IMG/VR virus record: IMGVR_UViG_3300021956_000004
Coordinates: 1 to 37,188 of that record
Length of the DNA stretch: 37,188 nucleotides
Strand: one strand, 5' to 3'
From: a virus
This document shows, one piece after another, positions 3,092 through 37,188 of this stretch. Both the position numbers and the translations under genes were made by a program. How positions within the stretch are numbered: position 1 is the first letter of the stretch; each line of letters opens with the position of its first letter. Under the pieces are notes generated by a model. That model saw only the letters and a list, made by a program, of their open reading frames with translations, ran no database searches and was not told the DNA's origin.

Positions 3092-3412
3092 ATGGAAAAT
3101 CAAGGAATAGTAAAAGTTAAATTTCCAAGAGAAACAGATACAAAATCTGGTTGGACTATTGACCATTCTTTTATTACAAGAGTTCGTCACTCAATTCCGC
3201 CAGATGAAGATGAGTGGATTTCAAGCCATGAAGAAGTTCAGGCAGTTTTACTTGCTCTTGAATGTATTCCCGCTGGCATCTACACCACCTCACCAAAGCG
3301 CCCGTGGGTTGGGCTGACGGATGAGGATTGGGATGAGATTTTTGGCAATGCGCTGACCATAGGCGAAGCCATAAAAGTAACAGAAGCCAAACTCAAGGAG
3401 AAGAACACATGA
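3092..3412 (+). CDS. Early protein with LTDED module, unknown
   Basis: This is a 106-residue protein starting 4 nt after the preceding stop, with AAGGAG upstream. Residues about 75-90 (GLTDEDWDEI) resemble the LTDEE region of the preceding gene. The first half has no motif I recognise. It ends in a 4-nt overlap with the next gene. Confidence 0.7.
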   Translation: MENQGIVKVKFPRETDTKSGWTIDHSFITRVRHSIPPDEDEWISSHEEVQAVLLALECIPAGIYTTSPKRPWVGLTDEDWDEIFGNALTIGEAIKVTEAKLKEKNT

Positions 3413-3594
3413 ACGCATTTCACCCAGACTTTATGGCTACGCATTACCCCAAGTTTTGGGATTTCTCAAAAAGCCAACAAGCGCTAACAGCAGAGCGTGA
3501 GATGGCTAAAAAGAGCGTAAAGCCCAAGCGGTTTTATGTATATGCTTTGGCAGACAGAATGAAACCATCTAAAAGGAACTATGCCAAGTTATGA
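3409..3594 (+). CDS. Small basic early protein, unknown
   Basis: A 61-residue protein rich in Lys and aromatic residues, with an AAGGAG site before the ATG and 4-nt overlaps with both neighbours. No motif recognised. Confidence 0.6.
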   Translation: MNAFHPDFMATHYPKFWDFSKSQQALTAEREMAKKSVKPKRFYVYALADRMKPSKRNYAKL

Positions 3595-3788
3595 CACAAG
3601 ATGAAATCATTGAACTGGCTAAACAATGTGGAATAGTTATTGGTTATCCAAAATATCAAGACATTGAAGCCTTTGCCAAACTTGTTGCAGAAAAAGAGCG
3701 TGAAAAAGTTACTAAAGAGCGTGATAGAATGTGCGAACATTGCAAATGGAGAAATAATGAAAACTCAACGCTCAATGAAACCAATTAG
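3591..3788 (+). CDS. Small early protein upstream of HNH gene, C-terminus possibly altered
   Basis: The first 45 residues (MTQDEIIELAKQCG ... FAKLVAEKEREK) resemble a family of small early phage proteins that usually continue into an EREACAKVCE helix. Here the frame instead ends in a Cys-x2-Cys stretch and an Asn/Thr-rich tail that overlaps the HNH gene by 32 nt. The gene at 4209 preserves the expected KEREACAKVCDE helix. The tail may therefore have been replaced when the HNH gene was inserted. Confidence 0.6.
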   Translation: MTQDEIIELAKQCGIVIGYPKYQDIEAFAKLVAEKEREKVTKERDRMCEHCKWRNNENSTLNETN

Positions 3789-4212
3789 TCAAAGATTTTG
3801 GGAAAAGGTAAACAAAACTTCCACCAATAATTGTTGGGAATGGACAAGTTCTATACGAGGAAACGGCTATGGTGCATTTTTTACTCATTTAATTGAAGAA
3901 GGTAGGAAATGCCACGGAGCGCATCGTTACTCTTGGGAATTAACTAATGGGCAAATACCAAGTGGTTTGTGGGTTTTGCATAAATGTGATAACAGAATTT
4001 GCGTAAATCCTGACCATCTTTTTTTGGGAAACAGAACTGACAACATGAAAGATTGCGCTACAAAAAGAAGGGTTTGCACAATCGGTAAATCAAATTTAAC
4101 TCATTGCAAACGAGGGCACGAATTTACATCTGAAAACACTTGGAAAACAAAACAAGGTTGGAGGTTATGTAAAGCGTGTGCAACATTAAGAAAAACAAGA
4201 GGTAAAGCATGA
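3757..4212 (+). CDS. HNH endonuclease
   Basis: A 151-residue protein with a clear HNH fold: His57 region (GAHRYSW), then VLHKCDNRICVNPDHLFLG with His75, Cys77, Cys82, Asn84 and His87. The C-terminal part has CKRGHEFT and CKAC, a second likely zinc site seen in many homing-type HNH enzymes. ATG 3757 is preferred because GGAG lies five bases upstream; an ATG at 3775 is possible and the frame is open further upstream to 3640. The gene is visibly more AT-rich than its neighbours, and sits as a cassette between two small related genes. Free-standing phage HNH enzymes are usually selfish homing nucleases. Confidence 0.88.
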   Translation: MKTQRSMKPISQRFWEKVNKTSTNNCWEWTSSIRGNGYGAFFTHLIEEGRKCHGAHRYSWELTNGQIPSGLWVLHKCDNRICVNPDHLFLGNRTDNMKDCATKRRVCTIGKSNLTHCKRGHEFTSENTWKTKQGWRLCKACATLRKTRGKA

Positions 4213-10709: not shown

Positions 10710-12029
10710 TTACTTTAACAACGGGTTGCTAGTGTCTACAGCACCGCCGCCAGTAGCGGCTGGCGCAGCGCCTGCACCGCCGCCAGCTTTCTGCTGCATT
10801 GTCTGCACACCCTTGCGGATGACGTCTTGATACTCACGCGCGGCCTTGGTAAATTCTGTCTCACTTTGGGCCAACGACATGCGGGTGCGCGCTGCAGTGG
10901 CTTTCGCGCCCTCTTTCTCAGTGATCGCGCCTGCGCCGCGCAAGACGTTAAAGGCTTCCAAGAACGCCGCGCCTTGAACTTGATCAAATGCAGCTTGGAA
11001 GTTGGCGGCGTCGGTGCCTGGCACAAAACGAACGCCTGGCAACCAAGTGGCGCCGACAGCGTTGGCAAACCCAGGGTGTTTTTTAGTACCTTGCTCAATG
11101 ACTTTACCCGACGCATCTTTAACCGTTGGCTTACCAACCAATTGGTCGATAAGGTTAACTGCCTCTTCAGCGTTAGCGATTGCGCCTGGCAAGGCTTGTT
11201 TGGCGGCCACATCACCTTTAGCGATAAGTTCACCAGTAGTTTTAGCGCTTTGCATTTTTTGTACAAATGCAGGATCGCCTTCGCGTCTGCTAGTTTCTTC
11301 GGCAAGCGCAAGCCGGCGGCCTTCATGGCCAAGACGGTCACCTTCTAACTTAATGCGTGTTAATTCACGGTTGTTAGTCATTATTTCGCCTGGAGTGGCG
11401 GTCTTTTTAGTTTCGCTAATTACGGTGCTAGGGCCACCAAACGCGGGGATTGCTGATGTGCGCGATGTGCCGCCTAAATTCTCTGTGACTATGTTAGGTT
11501 TTAAATCGCTAGGTTTTGCGCCTATTTGAGCAAGTGTTGATTGGCGTTCTGCAAACGGCAATTTAAGCAAATCTTCGCCTCTAGCCTTAATACCTGCTTT
11601 TTCAGCGTCGTCGTATAGCGGCGACAAAAGAATATCTTCTAAATGCGCGGTGATATTGGCGTCTGATGGCCGACTGCTAATGTCGCGCCATGCTTGCCCT
11701 AACATGTCTTGTTTTGCTTTTGCCGAAGTAACTTTACTTGCGGCGGTCGCCGCTCTGCTGGCCTCAGCCGCGCTTTGTTCTTTACGGTATTGAATACCAA
11801 GTTGCGGGTTGACTTTAAACAGTTGCGTTTCGTAATCAGGCGATGTTGGGTTCAATTGACGCAAAGCATTGCGCTCTTGCGCCGTCGCTTCTGCTTCGCG
11901 CATTTGCATCTGCTGCAATTGATTTTGCGTTTGATAATTCTGAAGTTGCGCCATTTGACCGTACTGAGCCAAAGGGTCAGCGATCTGTATTGGCTTAACG
12001 TTAAGAGATATGGATGGATCAATAGGCAT
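10710..12029 (-). CDS. Virion protein, probable DNA-ejection protein
   Basis: A 439-residue, Gln/Ala-rich, mainly helical protein with an N-terminal Gln-rich segment (about 25-50, QNYQTQNQLQQMQM) and an Ala/Gly-rich C-terminus. It lies between two other internal-virion candidates. The composition fits P22-type ejection proteins; no catalytic motif is seen. Its start at 12029 follows AAGGAAT. Confidence 0.7.
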   Translation of the reverse strand: MPIDPSISLNVKPIQIADPLAQYGQMAQLQNYQTQNQLQQMQMREAEATAQERNALRQLNPTSPDYETQLFKVNPQLGIQYRKEQSAAEASRAATAASKVTSAKAKQDMLGQAWRDISSRPSDANITAHLEDILLSPLYDDAEKAGIKARGEDLLKLPFAERQSTLAQIGAKPSDLKPNIVTENLGGTSRTSAIPAFGGPSTVISETKKTATPGEIMTNNRELTRIKLEGDRLGHEGRRLALAEETSRREGDPAFVQKMQSAKTTGELIAKGDVAAKQALPGAIANAEEAVNLIDQLVGKPTVKDASGKVIEQGTKKHPGFANAVGATWLPGVRFVPGTDAANFQAAFDQVQGAAFLEAFNVLRGAGAITEKEGAKATAARTRMSLAQSETEFTKAAREYQDVIRKGVQTMQQKAGGGAGAAPAATGGGAVDTSNPLLK

Positions 12030-12038
12030 ATTTATTCC

Positions 12039-12725
12039 TTAGTTTTGATCATAGCCATAGAAAGACGGTGTAGTTTGTACTTGTCTTCCTTTTAAAGCAT
12101 TAACCAAATTATTACCTTGGCTGTAATTTAAATACGTACCTAAACCACCAGTAAGCGCATTTGCTTCGCCGACGCGCCCCGCCGCGCTCGCCGCAGCTCC
12201 GCTAGTAGCGTAATTACCCATAGTGGCAGCGTTTTGCGCGCCCATTGTGCCTAAATTTGTTGCGGTGGTTTGACCGACGCCCGCCAATGATTGCAATGGG
12301 TTTAGTTGCGCGTTGCGTTCAGTCTGATAACGGTTAAAAGCGTTTGTGTATTCTTGGGAACCCATGTCTTGACCAAACCGAGTAGCCGCCTTGAGAGCGC
12401 TACCAGAGATTAAACCACCACGAGCCGCCGCGCTTCTTTCCAAAGCCTTTTGGCCTTCAGACAATCTGAACCCGTAACCAGGGTCTGCAGTCATAGCGCT
12501 ATAGTCAAAAGGCGTGTAATTTGTTGCCAAAGGTATCAACTTATTAAGCGCGGTTTTGCCTGCTTCCAAAAACGGCATTTGATCTTGACGTGTCTGTTGA
12601 TATTGCTCATTAGACAAAGCCATCGCGCGATTTGACGCGTCGGCTTGCGTATTTGCGGCGTCTTTTGCGGCTTGTGAACCAACCACGCCGCTTACTGCAA
12701 CGGCACCTGCTACCCATCCACTCAT
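12039..12725 (-). CDS. DNA transfer protein, P22 gp7-like position
   Basis: The 228-residue protein begins with a hydrophobic Gly/Ala/Val stretch (about 3-17), followed by a helical region (NTQADASNRAMALSNEQYQQ) and the segment MTADPGYGFRLSEGQKALERSAAARGG. The latter is widespread in phage proteins annotated as DNA transfer or injection proteins. Its end is Asn/Gln/Tyr-rich. With its two neighbours it forms a three-gene ejection set. It overlaps the upstream SET gene stop by 4 nt. Confidence 0.78.
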   Translation of the reverse strand: MSGWVAGAVAVSGVVGSQAAKDAANTQADASNRAMALSNEQYQQTRQDQMPFLEAGKTALNKLIPLATNYTPFDYSAMTADPGYGFRLSEGQKALERSAAARGGLISGSALKAATRFGQDMGSQEYTNAFNRYQTERNAQLNPLQSLAGVGQTTATNLGTMGAQNAATMGNYATSGAAASAAGRVGEANALTGGLGTYLNYSQGNNLVNALKGRQVQTTPSFYGYDQN

Positions 12726-13591
12726 GGCATTTCTCCTTGTAATACGAGGCCAAAGTTGACCCGCATTGATGCTCTGTAATCTACCAACAACTCATCGCCT
12801 GCGTTTATTTTACGCGAGGCAACGGCGTAAATGTCGTCGCCTTGTTTTTCTGGCTTGATATTGCAATTAAGCGAATGATTGATAAACCGCCCCCCAGGCG
12901 TTCTTTTCCCGTTTAACCTGCCAGGGCAAACAACTTCGCCCACTTCAAAATTTTTAGTGGCAAATAGCCCTTTGCCGTGAATCGGCGAGTCTCTCAATTC
13001 AACAGCAGTATTGTCAGGCATATCTATTAAATCATGCTCAATAAGGACAATCTTGTCAAGTTCATCTTGCGTCATGCCTATCTGATGAAGAAATGCGCCG
13101 TAGTCAATTTTTGCTTTTTGAACTTCTGTACGGCTATCGGCCAGCCCACATTCGGGCACTACATATAGCCTGTCTTCCAAGATTGCCATGTCAGTGCAGT
13201 TGTCTGGGTTATCGTATATATCCACCCAAACAACTTCATCATCAAAAACACGCCCCGCGCGTTGCATTCCAGCCTTTGCAGAAAATTCACACGGTGCGGT
13301 TAAAACTTTAACGCCGTCATCAGTGTTCACCGCAATAGTGCCCTTTTCTAAGCGAACGCGGTAGTCTGACTTATGCTCTGCTCCAGTTAATACCGTCCAC
13401 GCGGGAATGGTAATCTTTCGCTCATAAACCCCATCCATAAACAAATGCTCGGTCACAATATTTGCTTGGGGCATTTTTAGCAATTCTTTTTCTAACGCGC
13501 GTACTTTGCCAACCGTACACATTTCAGACGTTAAGTCAAAACTAAATGGAGACTTTTTGACTTCAAAACCTTTTCCGTAAGTAATTTTCAT
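12722..13591 (-). CDS. Cupin-like plus SET-domain protein (putative protein-lysine methyltransferase)
   Basis: ATG 13591 is chosen, giving 289 residues, because the longer frame to 13687 runs into the fibre gene upstream. Residues about 42-150 look like a cupin-type barrel found in phages (TEHLFMDGVYERKITIPAWTVL, then a KAG turn). Residues about 196-272 form a SET domain: DSPIHGKGLFAT, a charged insert, RFINHS with Asn238-His239, then ASRKINAGDELLVDY with Tyr272. These are the S-adenosylmethionine-binding and catalytic signatures of lysine methyltransferases. The usual pre- and post-SET cysteine clusters are absent. It is read with virion genes, so its target may be a virion protein or a host protein met on entry. 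Activity is inferred. Confidence 0.82.
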   Translation of the reverse strand: MKITYGKGFEVKKSPFSFDLTSEMCTVGKVRALEKELLKMPQANIVTEHLFMDGVYERKITIPAWTVLTGAEHKSDYRVRLEKGTIAVNTDDGVKVLTAPCEFSAKAGMQRAGRVFDDEVVWVDIYDNPDNCTDMAILEDRLYVVPECGLADSRTEVQKAKIDYGAFLHQIGMTQDELDKIVLIEHDLIDMPDNTAVELRDSPIHGKGLFATKNFEVGEVVCPGRLNGKRTPGGRFINHSLNCNIKPEKQGDDIYAVASRKINAGDELLVDYRASMRVNFGLVLQGEMP

Positions 13592-13595
13592 TAAA

Positions 13596-14219
13596 TTACT
13601 CCAAAAGCAGGTTGTTATTAGACGCAGCTTGCATGATGACCCAGTTGGTGCCGTCAGACACCATTGTTGCCCAGTTTCCCACAACATTTAAAAGAATCGC
13701 TGTTCCTGCCGAAGTGCTGTCAATTGGCACAACATTGCTTGAAGCGGACACCAAAAGCTGTGCTTGCATATTTTTAAAGGTAACTTGTCTACCAGTATAG
13801 GCAGATGCCGAAGGCAAAGTGACTGTGCAAGTTGAGCCTGACTTGTTGTTAATTACCCAAGATTCAGTAGAAGCTAAAGTGAAATCGGAAGTTTTGGTGA
13901 CTGGGGCTGAAGTAGTTGAAGACCCCCATGATGGAGCAGTATTTGCGCCATTTGAGGTTAATACTTGCCCAACAGTTCCAGAATGGAGTTTTGCCAATGT
14001 TGTTGTGGTATTGGCATACAGTATGTCACCTACCGAATAAGAACCAATCCCAGTACCGCCATTGATTGCAGGCGTTATGCCATCACCGCCGCCTGTAACG
14101 GTGTAAAGGTTGTAAAAGAACCGATACCATTCCCGCGACATCAATCCTGATTTTGAGTCAATCAAATCGACACGGGGGGCCGTGATCTGGGTAATGTTGG
14201 TTGTTTGGGTTGTAGCCAT
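13596..14219 (-). CDS. Tail fibre-like structural protein
   Basis: A 207-residue Ser/Thr/Gly/Asn-rich protein. The N-terminus (VDLIDSKSGLMSREWYRFFYNLY) is a known adaptor-like phage segment. It is followed by NGGTGI ... GDILYAN ... VGQVLTSNGANTAPSW, a motif typical of phage fibres. The C-terminal half (TCTVTLPSASAYTGRQVTFKN) resembles the protein encoded at 20720. It is probably a fibre or virion surface component. Confidence 0.75.
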   Translation of the reverse strand: MATTQTTNITQITAPRVDLIDSKSGLMSREWYRFFYNLYTVTGGGDGITPAINGGTGIGSYSVGDILYANTTTTLAKLHSGTVGQVLTSNGANTAPSWGSSTTSAPVTKTSDFTLASTESWVINNKSGSTCTVTLPSASAYTGRQVTFKNMQAQLLVSASSNVVPIDSTSAGTAILLNVVGNWATMVSDGTNWVIMQAASNNNLLLE

Positions 14220-15667
14220 TATGCGTTGGTGGGGCTAATCAATAGTTCAGCACCCATAATGACTGCTTTGACTGGATCGGTTTGCGATACCTCATAGACA
14301 CGGTCACGCAATTTCATAGTCATGCCAAGCCTGCGCCAAAAGACGCGCCTGTAATACTGACCAATTTTGCCCATTTTGCTTAAATGTTCATTTGACCATG
14401 TATGACCGCCATCATCAGACCAGCGCAACATGATCTCTGGGTCACTACCTTGACCCGTGTTTAGACCAGTGCCAGATTCACAATCAAGTTGAAGACTATG
14501 CTGTGCAGAACGTCTAAGATTATTAGTGCCAGTTGGCAATGCTCTCCATGACCGCAACCACTTCTGGATGCCACCATTGTCGGCATAAACATTTAGGTCA
14601 AGGGTATAGATGTTGCCGTTTAAATAATCACCTACTACCGTATTGCCACCAAAATTACATTGGCAGTTGCTACGGTGGCGAGTAAATTGTCCTAATGTAG
14701 TATCCCAACCAGCGCGTTCATGCCATGCTTGGGTAGATACATCGTAGACCCAAGTGGCGTTGCCAGTGGGAAATGTCAGGACATAGAAAGAATGACCTTC
14801 TTGCTGATAGGTGTAAGCCACAGCATCCGAAATGTTTCCATATTGAGCAATGGCGTATTCGACTGCATGGGTAGAAACTCTAATGCCAGAATAACCATTG
14901 TTACGATAAACAATTCCCTGACCACGGGCATCTGTGCCGAGCCAGAATAGGCCGTTGTCGAGCTTTGCGACAGAGAACGCCGCTACGCATCCAATTTCGT
15001 TAAAAGCACCTTGGATGCGCGTTAAAGGAAAGTCAGCCAATCCTGCGTCATACCAGACCTCAACCGAATCAGTGCCAAACAACCAAGCCTCGCGGTGATC
15101 CACATTAATGGCAACCAATCCATCGGGAGAACCTTCAGCAGATGCAAAGTCAAGAGGATCGACAGAAGTGCCGTCCAATAAGGCTGTTACCCACACTTTT
15201 TGTGAGTTGGGTTCGTTATAGACAAAGTATCCGTCTAAGTACGCCACAGTTACAGCACCCGTAAAGTCGGGGTCAGTAATCTTGGCAAACACATTAGTAA
15301 CTTCGTTATAAATGTACCCGTCAGGATTGCAAGCCAAAAAGATTTGTGTGCCATTGTCGGCAATTGAGACTGGACCAGTACCTGTGACATCACCTAATTT
15401 GGTAGGTGTGGCGGTTAATCCAGTGACTTTGTAGAACTCAGTACCACTGACAACGTAGAAATCGCTACCGTTGGTCTGGTGTGCCCACAGCGCTCGGATA
15501 GGACCTGTGCCTATGGTTTGTTGGAACTTTAGACCTGGTGCGCGGTTAAAAAACGCTGCTGTTTTTCCACCTTCTGGAACAATTTCTGGAAAAAGGTTAA
15601 CAAGTCGATTGTCTGCCGCATTGACACTGCGAGCGACATAAGACGCACCCAGAATCGGTGTTTGCAT
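14219..15667 (-). CDS. P22 gp10-like packaged DNA stabilisation / tail hub protein
   Basis: The 482-residue protein begins SYVARSVNAADNRLVNLFPEI and continues through APGLKF, WAHQTNGSDFYVVSGTEFYKV and many beta-rich segments, ending with RRVFWRRLGM. This is the pattern of the P22 gp10 family, which forms part of the tail machine that closes the portal and holds packaged DNA. It lies directly after the gp4-like gene with a 1-nt overlap, the same order as in P22. Confidence 0.88.
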   Translation of the reverse strand: MQTPILGASYVARSVNAADNRLVNLFPEIVPEGGKTAAFFNRAPGLKFQQTIGTGPIRALWAHQTNGSDFYVVSGTEFYKVTGLTATPTKLGDVTGTGPVSIADNGTQIFLACNPDGYIYNEVTNVFAKITDPDFTGAVTVAYLDGYFVYNEPNSQKVWVTALLDGTSVDPLDFASAEGSPDGLVAINVDHREAWLFGTDSVEVWYDAGLADFPLTRIQGAFNEIGCVAAFSVAKLDNGLFWLGTDARGQGIVYRNNGYSGIRVSTHAVEYAIAQYGNISDAVAYTYQQEGHSFYVLTFPTGNATWVYDVSTQAWHERAGWDTTLGQFTRHRSNCQCNFGGNTVVGDYLNGNIYTLDLNVYADNGGIQKWLRSWRALPTGTNNLRRSAQHSLQLDCESGTGLNTGQGSDPEIMLRWSDDGGHTWSNEHLSKMGKIGQYYRRVFWRRLGMTMKLRDRVYEVSQTDPVKAVIMGAELLISPTNA

Positions 15668-16383
15668 TAGTAGTTACCTGCGTAGATGTTAAAGCGTTGG
15701 CGTGTAGCCACAATTGCATATGGCATTGACATCACATCATCAGGATTGTTGATGCGCTTCAGATTGCGCTTGGATGTCATTGCAATGCGTTGTACTTGTG
15801 CGCTAGGTTCAACACCAAACTCAGGCGCAATTTCCATAGCCAAGTTGTATGTGAAGGCGCGGAGATAGCCTGGCGGGTAATACATTACCGTTGTCAAATC
15901 GGCTGGGCGATCTAACTCTTGCACACTAATAAAGTGCCATTCCAAATCCCGTGTAGGTTTTGGATAGATTGTTAAGGTAATGTCAGGAAACCCCATATTT
16001 ACCCAACAAACCTGTGGATAAGTGGAAGTTACCGTCTTAACAGCAATGCCATCATATTGCTGTTGATTAATAAATTTGATGCCAAACGATACATTCGTGC
16101 CAGGGTCTCTGTAGTAAGTAGCGTCATCCATCAAAATAGGACGCAATCCTACAAAGTCACCAGTTGGGCCAAGATCACGAGAAATGTACCCAGCAGGCCA
16201 AGTGAACACTTGATCTTGGGTTACAAAAGTAGAAAGACGCTCTGTATTCCAAGAGTCAATCATCTGGTTTAGCGCCATGAGCGAATCTTGCGAAACCGAT
16301 GCCGATGGGGTTTCACCTTCAGCCAATACACCGAGCAATCGTAATGCTCTATTGATTTGATCACCAGCCGTGTATGTAGCCAT
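15667..16383 (-). CDS. P22 gp4-like tail accessory / head completion protein
   Basis: The 238-residue protein starts with TAGDQINRALRLLGVLAEGE and SLMALNQMIDSWNTERL, the characteristic start of P22 gp4-type adaptors, and has MYYPPGYLRAFTYNLA in its second half. These proteins bind the portal after packaging and make the platform for the rest of the tail. Its neighbour is the gp10-like gene, consistent with function. P22 gp4 also has muramidase activity; no such motif can be confirmed here. Confidence 0.87.
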   Translation of the reverse strand: MATYTAGDQINRALRLLGVLAEGETPSASVSQDSLMALNQMIDSWNTERLSTFVTQDQVFTWPAGYISRDLGPTGDFVGLRPILMDDATYYRDPGTNVSFGIKFINQQQYDGIAVKTVTSTYPQVCWVNMGFPDITLTIYPKPTRDLEWHFISVQELDRPADLTTVMYYPPGYLRAFTYNLAMEIAPEFGVEPSAQVQRIAMTSKRNLKRINNPDDVMSMPYAIVATRQRFNIYAGNY

Positions 16384-37058: not shown

Positions 37059-37188
37059 ATTTTCAGGGACTGTCAGAGAAGCGTTTGCTAAACGCGGGCA
37101 TGACGCATGGTCTTGTGATTTAGAACCTACAGATGTGCCTGGTAATCATTATCAAGGGTCAGTGTTGGACATATTAGATAGGGGGGGG
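37027..37188 (+). CDS. C5-cytosine methyltransferase-like protein, 5' part
   Basis: ATG 37027 starts the frame that leaves the window at 37188 and continues at the left end (to 586) once the 127-bp overlap is merged. The first residues (GLKVLVACEFSGTVREAF) hold the S-adenosylmethionine-binding motif I. The start lies within the nuclease gene, so translation is coupled. See the left-end entry for the rest. Confidence 0.75.
   Translation, partial: MSGLKVLVACEFSGTVREAFAKRGHDAWSCDLEPTDVPGNHYQGSVLDILDRGG
37062..37188. repeat. Terminal direct repeat, right copy
   Basis: Exact copy of 1-127. Merging the two gives a 37,061-bp circle in which the coding frame of the methyltransferase-like gene is continuous. 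Confidence 0.93.

Follow-up and report, generated by a model that had tools for sequence, protein, structure and literature searches.

The window analysed here is the whole 37,188-nucleotide stretch of a viral record (IMGVR_UViG_3300021956_000004, positions 1 to 37,188), and on one strand of it lie, in this order, genes for a P22 gp4-like tail adaptor, a gp10-like head closure protein (Hc3), a putative small fibre, a cupin-SET protein, a gp7-like DNA ejection protein and the next ejection-type protein (Table 1). The original prediction had placed a SET-domain methyltransferase, fused to a cupin-like domain, among virion genes. This placement holds: the cupin-SET gene sits between the gp10-like and gp7-like genes and overlaps the latter. 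The reading frame is a real one, carrying a GGAG Shine-Dalgarno sequence and a stop codon that overlaps the start of the next gene. An alternative ATG upstream, at 13687, would give a longer ORF; the start at 13591 is preferred because of the Shine-Dalgarno sequence and the starts used across the family. Co-transcription of the gene with its neighbours, as originally proposed, is consistent with the gene order and the overlaps. At its far end (37181-37188) the record closes with eight consecutive G, which may have arisen in sequencing or assembly.

Table 1. Genes, domains and motifs at the cupin-SET locus, in positions of the window.
Feature	Position	Strand	Evidence or remark
P22 gp4-like tail adaptor gene	15667..16383	-	phrog_637, E 1.2e-10; phrog_12985, E 8.4e-46
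P22 gp10-like head closure (Hc3) gene	14219..15667	-	phrog_578, E 4.9e-131
Putative small fibre gene, 207 aa, directly upstream of cupin-SET	13596..14219	-	phrog_30390, weak, 48 aa; position
Shine-Dalgarno GGAG of cupin-SET gene	13599..13602	-	
Cupin-SET ORF, 289 aa	12722..13591	-	ATG 13591-13589; TGA overlaps ATG of next gene
Cupin double-stranded beta-helix domain, residues 41-145	13157..13471	-	AF2 model; VIA; PHROG 12032
Helical linker, residues 146-190	13022..13156	-	AF2 model; homologue comparison
Minimal SET domain, residues 191-275	12767..13021	-	Pfam PF00856; structure matches
Motif I HGKGLF, residues 205-210	12962..12979	-	G206 and G208 invariant
Motif III RFINHS, residues 235-240	12872..12889	-	N238 and H239 invariant; preceded by invariant R230 and near-invariant T231
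Motif IV ELLVDY, residues 267-272	12776..12793	-	E267 and catalytic Tyr272 invariant
P22 gp7-like DNA ejection protein gene	12039..12725	-	phrog_598, E 3.5e-40; overlaps cupin-SET stop
Next ejection-type protein gene, gp20-like by size and order	10710..12029	-	phrog_2534, E 1.3e-15

SET domains are used by eukaryotes for histone methylation. The C-terminal part of the phage protein matches the Pfam SET family (PF00856) with an E-value of 1.7e-10, scoring 41.7 bits where the cut-off is 22.4, the best stretch aligning to profile positions 61-104 of 105 only, that is, to the second half. An AlphaFold (AF2) model of the full protein, built on 69 natural homologues, reaches a mean pLDDT of 89.5 and about 97 in the SET part. 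In this model residues about 191-273 superpose on the SET domains of MLL1 and MLL3 with a Z of about 10 (1.6-1.7 Å over 78-80 residues, 34-40% identity). A second model, of the linker and SET alone (97 sequences, mean pLDDT 83.2), finds SET methyltransferases in all of its best 50 PDB matches, including MLL1 (Z 10.2, 1.6 Å over 78 residues, 40% identity) and vSET (Z 9.4, 2.2 Å over 75 residues, 32% identity). The RFINHS motif and Tyr272 are both present as first described. Structure prediction, proposed at the outset as a way to challenge the assignment, thus returned a SET fold, and the comparison of homologues found the catalytic residues kept.

The phage domain is a stripped-down SET, a point on which the first reading of the sequence did not remark. 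In MLL1, as read from the alignment, about 66 residues separate the first Gly of the GxG motif from the Asn of the NH motif; the same spacing is 32 in 166 of 172 family members, with a few at 36-37. The segment known as SET-I and the strand before it are absent. In known SET enzymes SET-I helps to form the lysine channel, and since this region is missing the lysine specificity of the phage enzyme is uncertain. A short segment takes its place, in which Pro223 and Arg225 are conserved, Arg230 is invariant and Thr231 nearly so. The domain has retained its SAM-binding and catalytic positions, and its substrate side is rebuilt around the Arg-Thr pair. Zinc-binding post-SET cysteines are a feature of the KMT2 and SUV39 classes; the protein of the window has no cysteine after Tyr272.

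The N-terminal part of the fusion is a cupin barrel. Residues 42-144 of the model superpose on cupins, the best VIA match being 4e2g (Z 11.4, 3.0 Å over 93 residues), and many other cupins match the barrel as a double-stranded beta-helix, which bears out the cupin-like domain suspected ahead of the SET. By sequence, this part matches PHROG 12032, annotated as short tail fiber, with an E-value of 1.2e-22, and searches of solved structures with the phage cupin protein gave weak, chance-level matches or none (E up to 10). Most enzymatic cupins carry an HxH...E...H metal-binding motif. No such conserved set was found in the phage cupin, whose conserved positions are H49, F51, Y56, R58, G70, G84, P100, G108 and W122, and a metal-dependent cupin enzyme was dropped from consideration for lack of the motif. 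The helical linker accompanies the SET in other proteins and is kept in relatives that have lost the SET.

Relatives are abundant: scans of IMG/VR recovered whole-protein relatives in at least 559 stretches and SET relatives in at least 388. A cupin is also present in 166 of the 172 SET ORFs at the loci fetched, which were picked by these domains. An alignment of 97 SETs has Ser202, Gly206, Gly208, Arg230, Gly234, Asn238, His239, Asn244, Glu267 and Tyr272 invariant. Among 57 SETs of less than 70% identity, Ser202, Gly206, Gly208, Arg230, Gly234, Asn238 and His239 occur in 57 of 57 and Tyr272 in 56, the sole exception being a truncated contig. A SET degenerated by loss of catalytic residues is ruled out by this invariance. 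Pairwise omega between close relatives is 0.069 for the cupin, 0.15 for the linker and 0.118 for the SET, values that are rough given the high dS; selection on the protein is purifying, with a SET omega of about 0.12. Across 51 proteins the cupin distances rise with the SET distances (Spearman 0.73, a value reached in 0 of 2000 permutations), and therefore the fusion is old and has been inherited as one unit. Chance or artefact as the source of the cupin-SET protein is ruled out by the profile scores, by the confidence of the predicted fold, by the omega values and by the hundreds of homologues.

Of 171 loci compared for the genomic slot, 139 carry a same-strand gp10-like gene upstream and 122 a gp7-like gene downstream, and no locus is inverted; the remaining loci gave no gp10-like or gp7-like hit, in some cases probably because of contig ends. 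Rhodoferax phage P26218, Pseudoalteromonas phage PH1, phage ct1fd225 and phage ctfPj964 carry a cupin-SET gene at the same slot. Cupins without a SET occupy it in BPP-1, BA3, VPMS1, DSL-LC05 and VAC_51. In T7 the corresponding position, before gp14, is held by gp13, a probable scaffold according to Pfam for which no modifying activity was found; this parallel, which the VAC_51 cupin at that place invites, was not used as evidence as it is positional only. In one relative (L028, 3385-4816; MW202557) the cupin-SET ORF is uncalled in the GenBank record. An opposite-strand CDS named 'contryphan-vn-tryptophan' (locus 3385-3951) ends there at the cupin-SET start, and the gap is probably an annotation error.

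Several relatives have lost or reshuffled parts of the protein. In four loci (L017-L020) the backbone, cupin and linker are kept, the Hc3 protein of L017 being 94% identical, and the proteins stop before the SET. Because the SET is missing from nearly the same backbone, it is not required. The SET is therefore an accessory, some relatives having lost it while keeping the cupin. Another locus (L022) has the same backbone and a different cupin of 40% identity. In L022 (2566-3876) the cupin is fused in frame to a gp7-like protein shortened by its first ~40 residues, either a deletion or an assembly artefact. In L139 (4893-5726) the order is reversed in the same slot, linker and SET coming before the cupin. 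Two further loci, L127 and L132, have the linker and SET without a cupin, the L127 gene lying between the portal and head scaffold genes. The proteins of L127 (2360-3013) and L132 carry a helical-looking C-terminal extension after the linker and SET.

A few other SETs are found away from virion operons. In Paraburkholderia ferrariae (L184) the cupin and SET are two adjacent genes by a helicase gene in an integrase island. The proteins tested from this island revealed no virion gene, and no gp7-like gene was detected in the genome. Separate adjacent cupin and SET genes are seen in L184 (4105-5537) and in L220/L221, the surrounding island carrying integrase genes together with O-like replication and helicase genes and no detected virion gene. 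The island may be what remains of a prophage, or it may be a phage satellite. In L187 and L191 the SETs lie near primase and helicase genes, and mini-SETs stand alone in cyanophages and one pelagiphage, that of P-SSM7 being close to nrdB. The fusion, the swapped order of L139 and the separate adjacent genes of L184 all tie the cupin to the SET, and the SETs in replication and head regions (L184, L187, L191, L127) together with the cyanophage stand-alones mean that placement in a virion operon is not universal.

The phage SET can be compared with several known systems. By sequence and structure its best match is to the MLL/KMT2 SETs (40% identity over 78 residues), from which it differs in lacking SET-I and the post-SET cysteines and in having half the GxG-to-NH spacing; there is no sign of a histone substrate. 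Another comparison is vSET, the PBCV-1 A612L protein (PDB 1n3j/3kma), a viral H3K27 methyltransferase. Both are small viral SETs without pre-SET or post-SET regions. Unlike the phage domain, which is fused to a cupin and has an invariant R-T before GR(F/Y)xNH, vSET stands alone in a virus of algae and is longer, 105 of its residues corresponding to an 82-column stretch of the phage profile. The mini-SETs of PHROG 28741 (P-SSM7, P-RSM6) share the SET-I-less core, with RTPLGGFxNHS and the catalytic Tyr, but are stand-alone proteins of about 99 residues without cupin or linker and with varied neighbourhoods. On the cupin side, members of PHROG 12032/24280 (short tail fiber / tail fiber adhesin; BPP-1 Bbp23, BA3, VPMS1) have the same cupin in the same slot but no SET, and their fibre label is an annotation only.

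The full-length cupin-SET family itself corresponds to PHROG 34170 (residues 24-282, E 1.9e-40), which is listed without a function, and NCBIfam gave no match above its cut-off. One relative, in MW202744, carries the name of vSET in its annotation. The family, already in PHROGs and with a relative annotated after vSET, is therefore not categorically new; what is new here is the SET-I-less form, the cupin fusion at an ejection locus and the abundance. Searches of an open literature library found no paper on PHROG 34170 and no functional study of a phage SET, of the cupin fibre or of the cupin-SET arrangement, and the text of the Shewanella X14 paper nowhere mentions a structural protein, a tail fiber or mass spectrometry.

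The phage SET domain is probably a working methyltransferase, a reading favoured because the SAM-binding and catalytic positions are all kept at about 30% identity. Action on or with the tail and ejection machinery is favoured because of the slot and the gene overlap. The most likely single reading, still tentative and with a reasonable but minority chance, is a minimal SET methyltransferase tethered to a cupin assembly or tail protein and methylating virion proteins during assembly. An enzyme delivered with the virion is a rather unlikely alternative: the cupin would place the SET in the tail or the ejected set, and the enzyme would enter the new host and methylate its proteins early in infection. 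The position of the gene directly before the ejection genes suits such an effector, as do the accessory and exchangeable nature of the SET and the phage SETs standing alone outside virion operons, which suggest cellular targets, but in many phages the cupin carries the annotation of an external short fibre, and the SET would then stay outside the cell and have no SAM. There is a similarly small chance that the protein is a late intracellular enzyme, no part of the virion, with host proteins or a small molecule as its substrate late in infection and nothing but the late operon in common with the virion genes. The cupin and SET genes of L184, separate and next to replication genes, and the SETs beside primase and helicase genes in L187 and L191 are in keeping with this, and loss of the lysine channel would permit a non-protein substrate, yet the slot between the tail-completion and ejection genes is highly conserved, over more than 120 loci, and cupin-only homologues hold it in T7-like and BPP-1-like phages. 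A catalytically dead SET, whose role would be structural, receptor-binding or that of a SAM-sensing switch, is improbable: the loss of SET-I and its preceding strand, the kinship of the cupin with tail fibre adhesin families and the exchange of the cupin locus between near-identical backbones (L022, L017) would agree with it, but the SAM-binding and catalytic residues are invariant in so divergent a family, and variation would be expected of a binding module at a phage tip, against an observed omega of about 0.12.

Returning to the tethered methyltransferase, activity, substrate, timing and virion association are what we infer. The protein would be a two-domain late protein of P22/BPP-1-like (short-tailed) podophages. 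Its conserved core would be the cupin barrel, an assembly protein or a component of the tail or ejection complex held at the fixed gp10-like/gp7-like slot, and the C-terminal minimal SET would be tethered to it as an accessory SAM-dependent methyltransferase. GxG and Asn238-His239 would bind SAM, and Tyr272 would be the catalytic tyrosine. With SET-I absent, the linker, the cupin or a partner would have to complete the substrate groove. Most likely a neighbouring protein of the tail, fibre or ejection apparatus would be methylated, on a lysine or some other nucleophile. More speculatively, and with considerable doubt, the family may be a widespread class, among the smallest SET folds, that modifies tail or ejection proteins, or envelope proteins of the new host, and so tunes infectivity.

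On this last reading, protein methylation would be part of phage virion maturation. The cultured carriers, Rhodoferax phage P26218 and Pseudoalteromonas phage PH1, make the cupin-SET protein testable. If active, it would represent a common phage SET methyltransferase within the tail and ejection block, built on a core without the usual holder of the substrate lysine. Such an enzyme would show the minimal requirements of a SET domain and bring methylation into phage assembly or infection.
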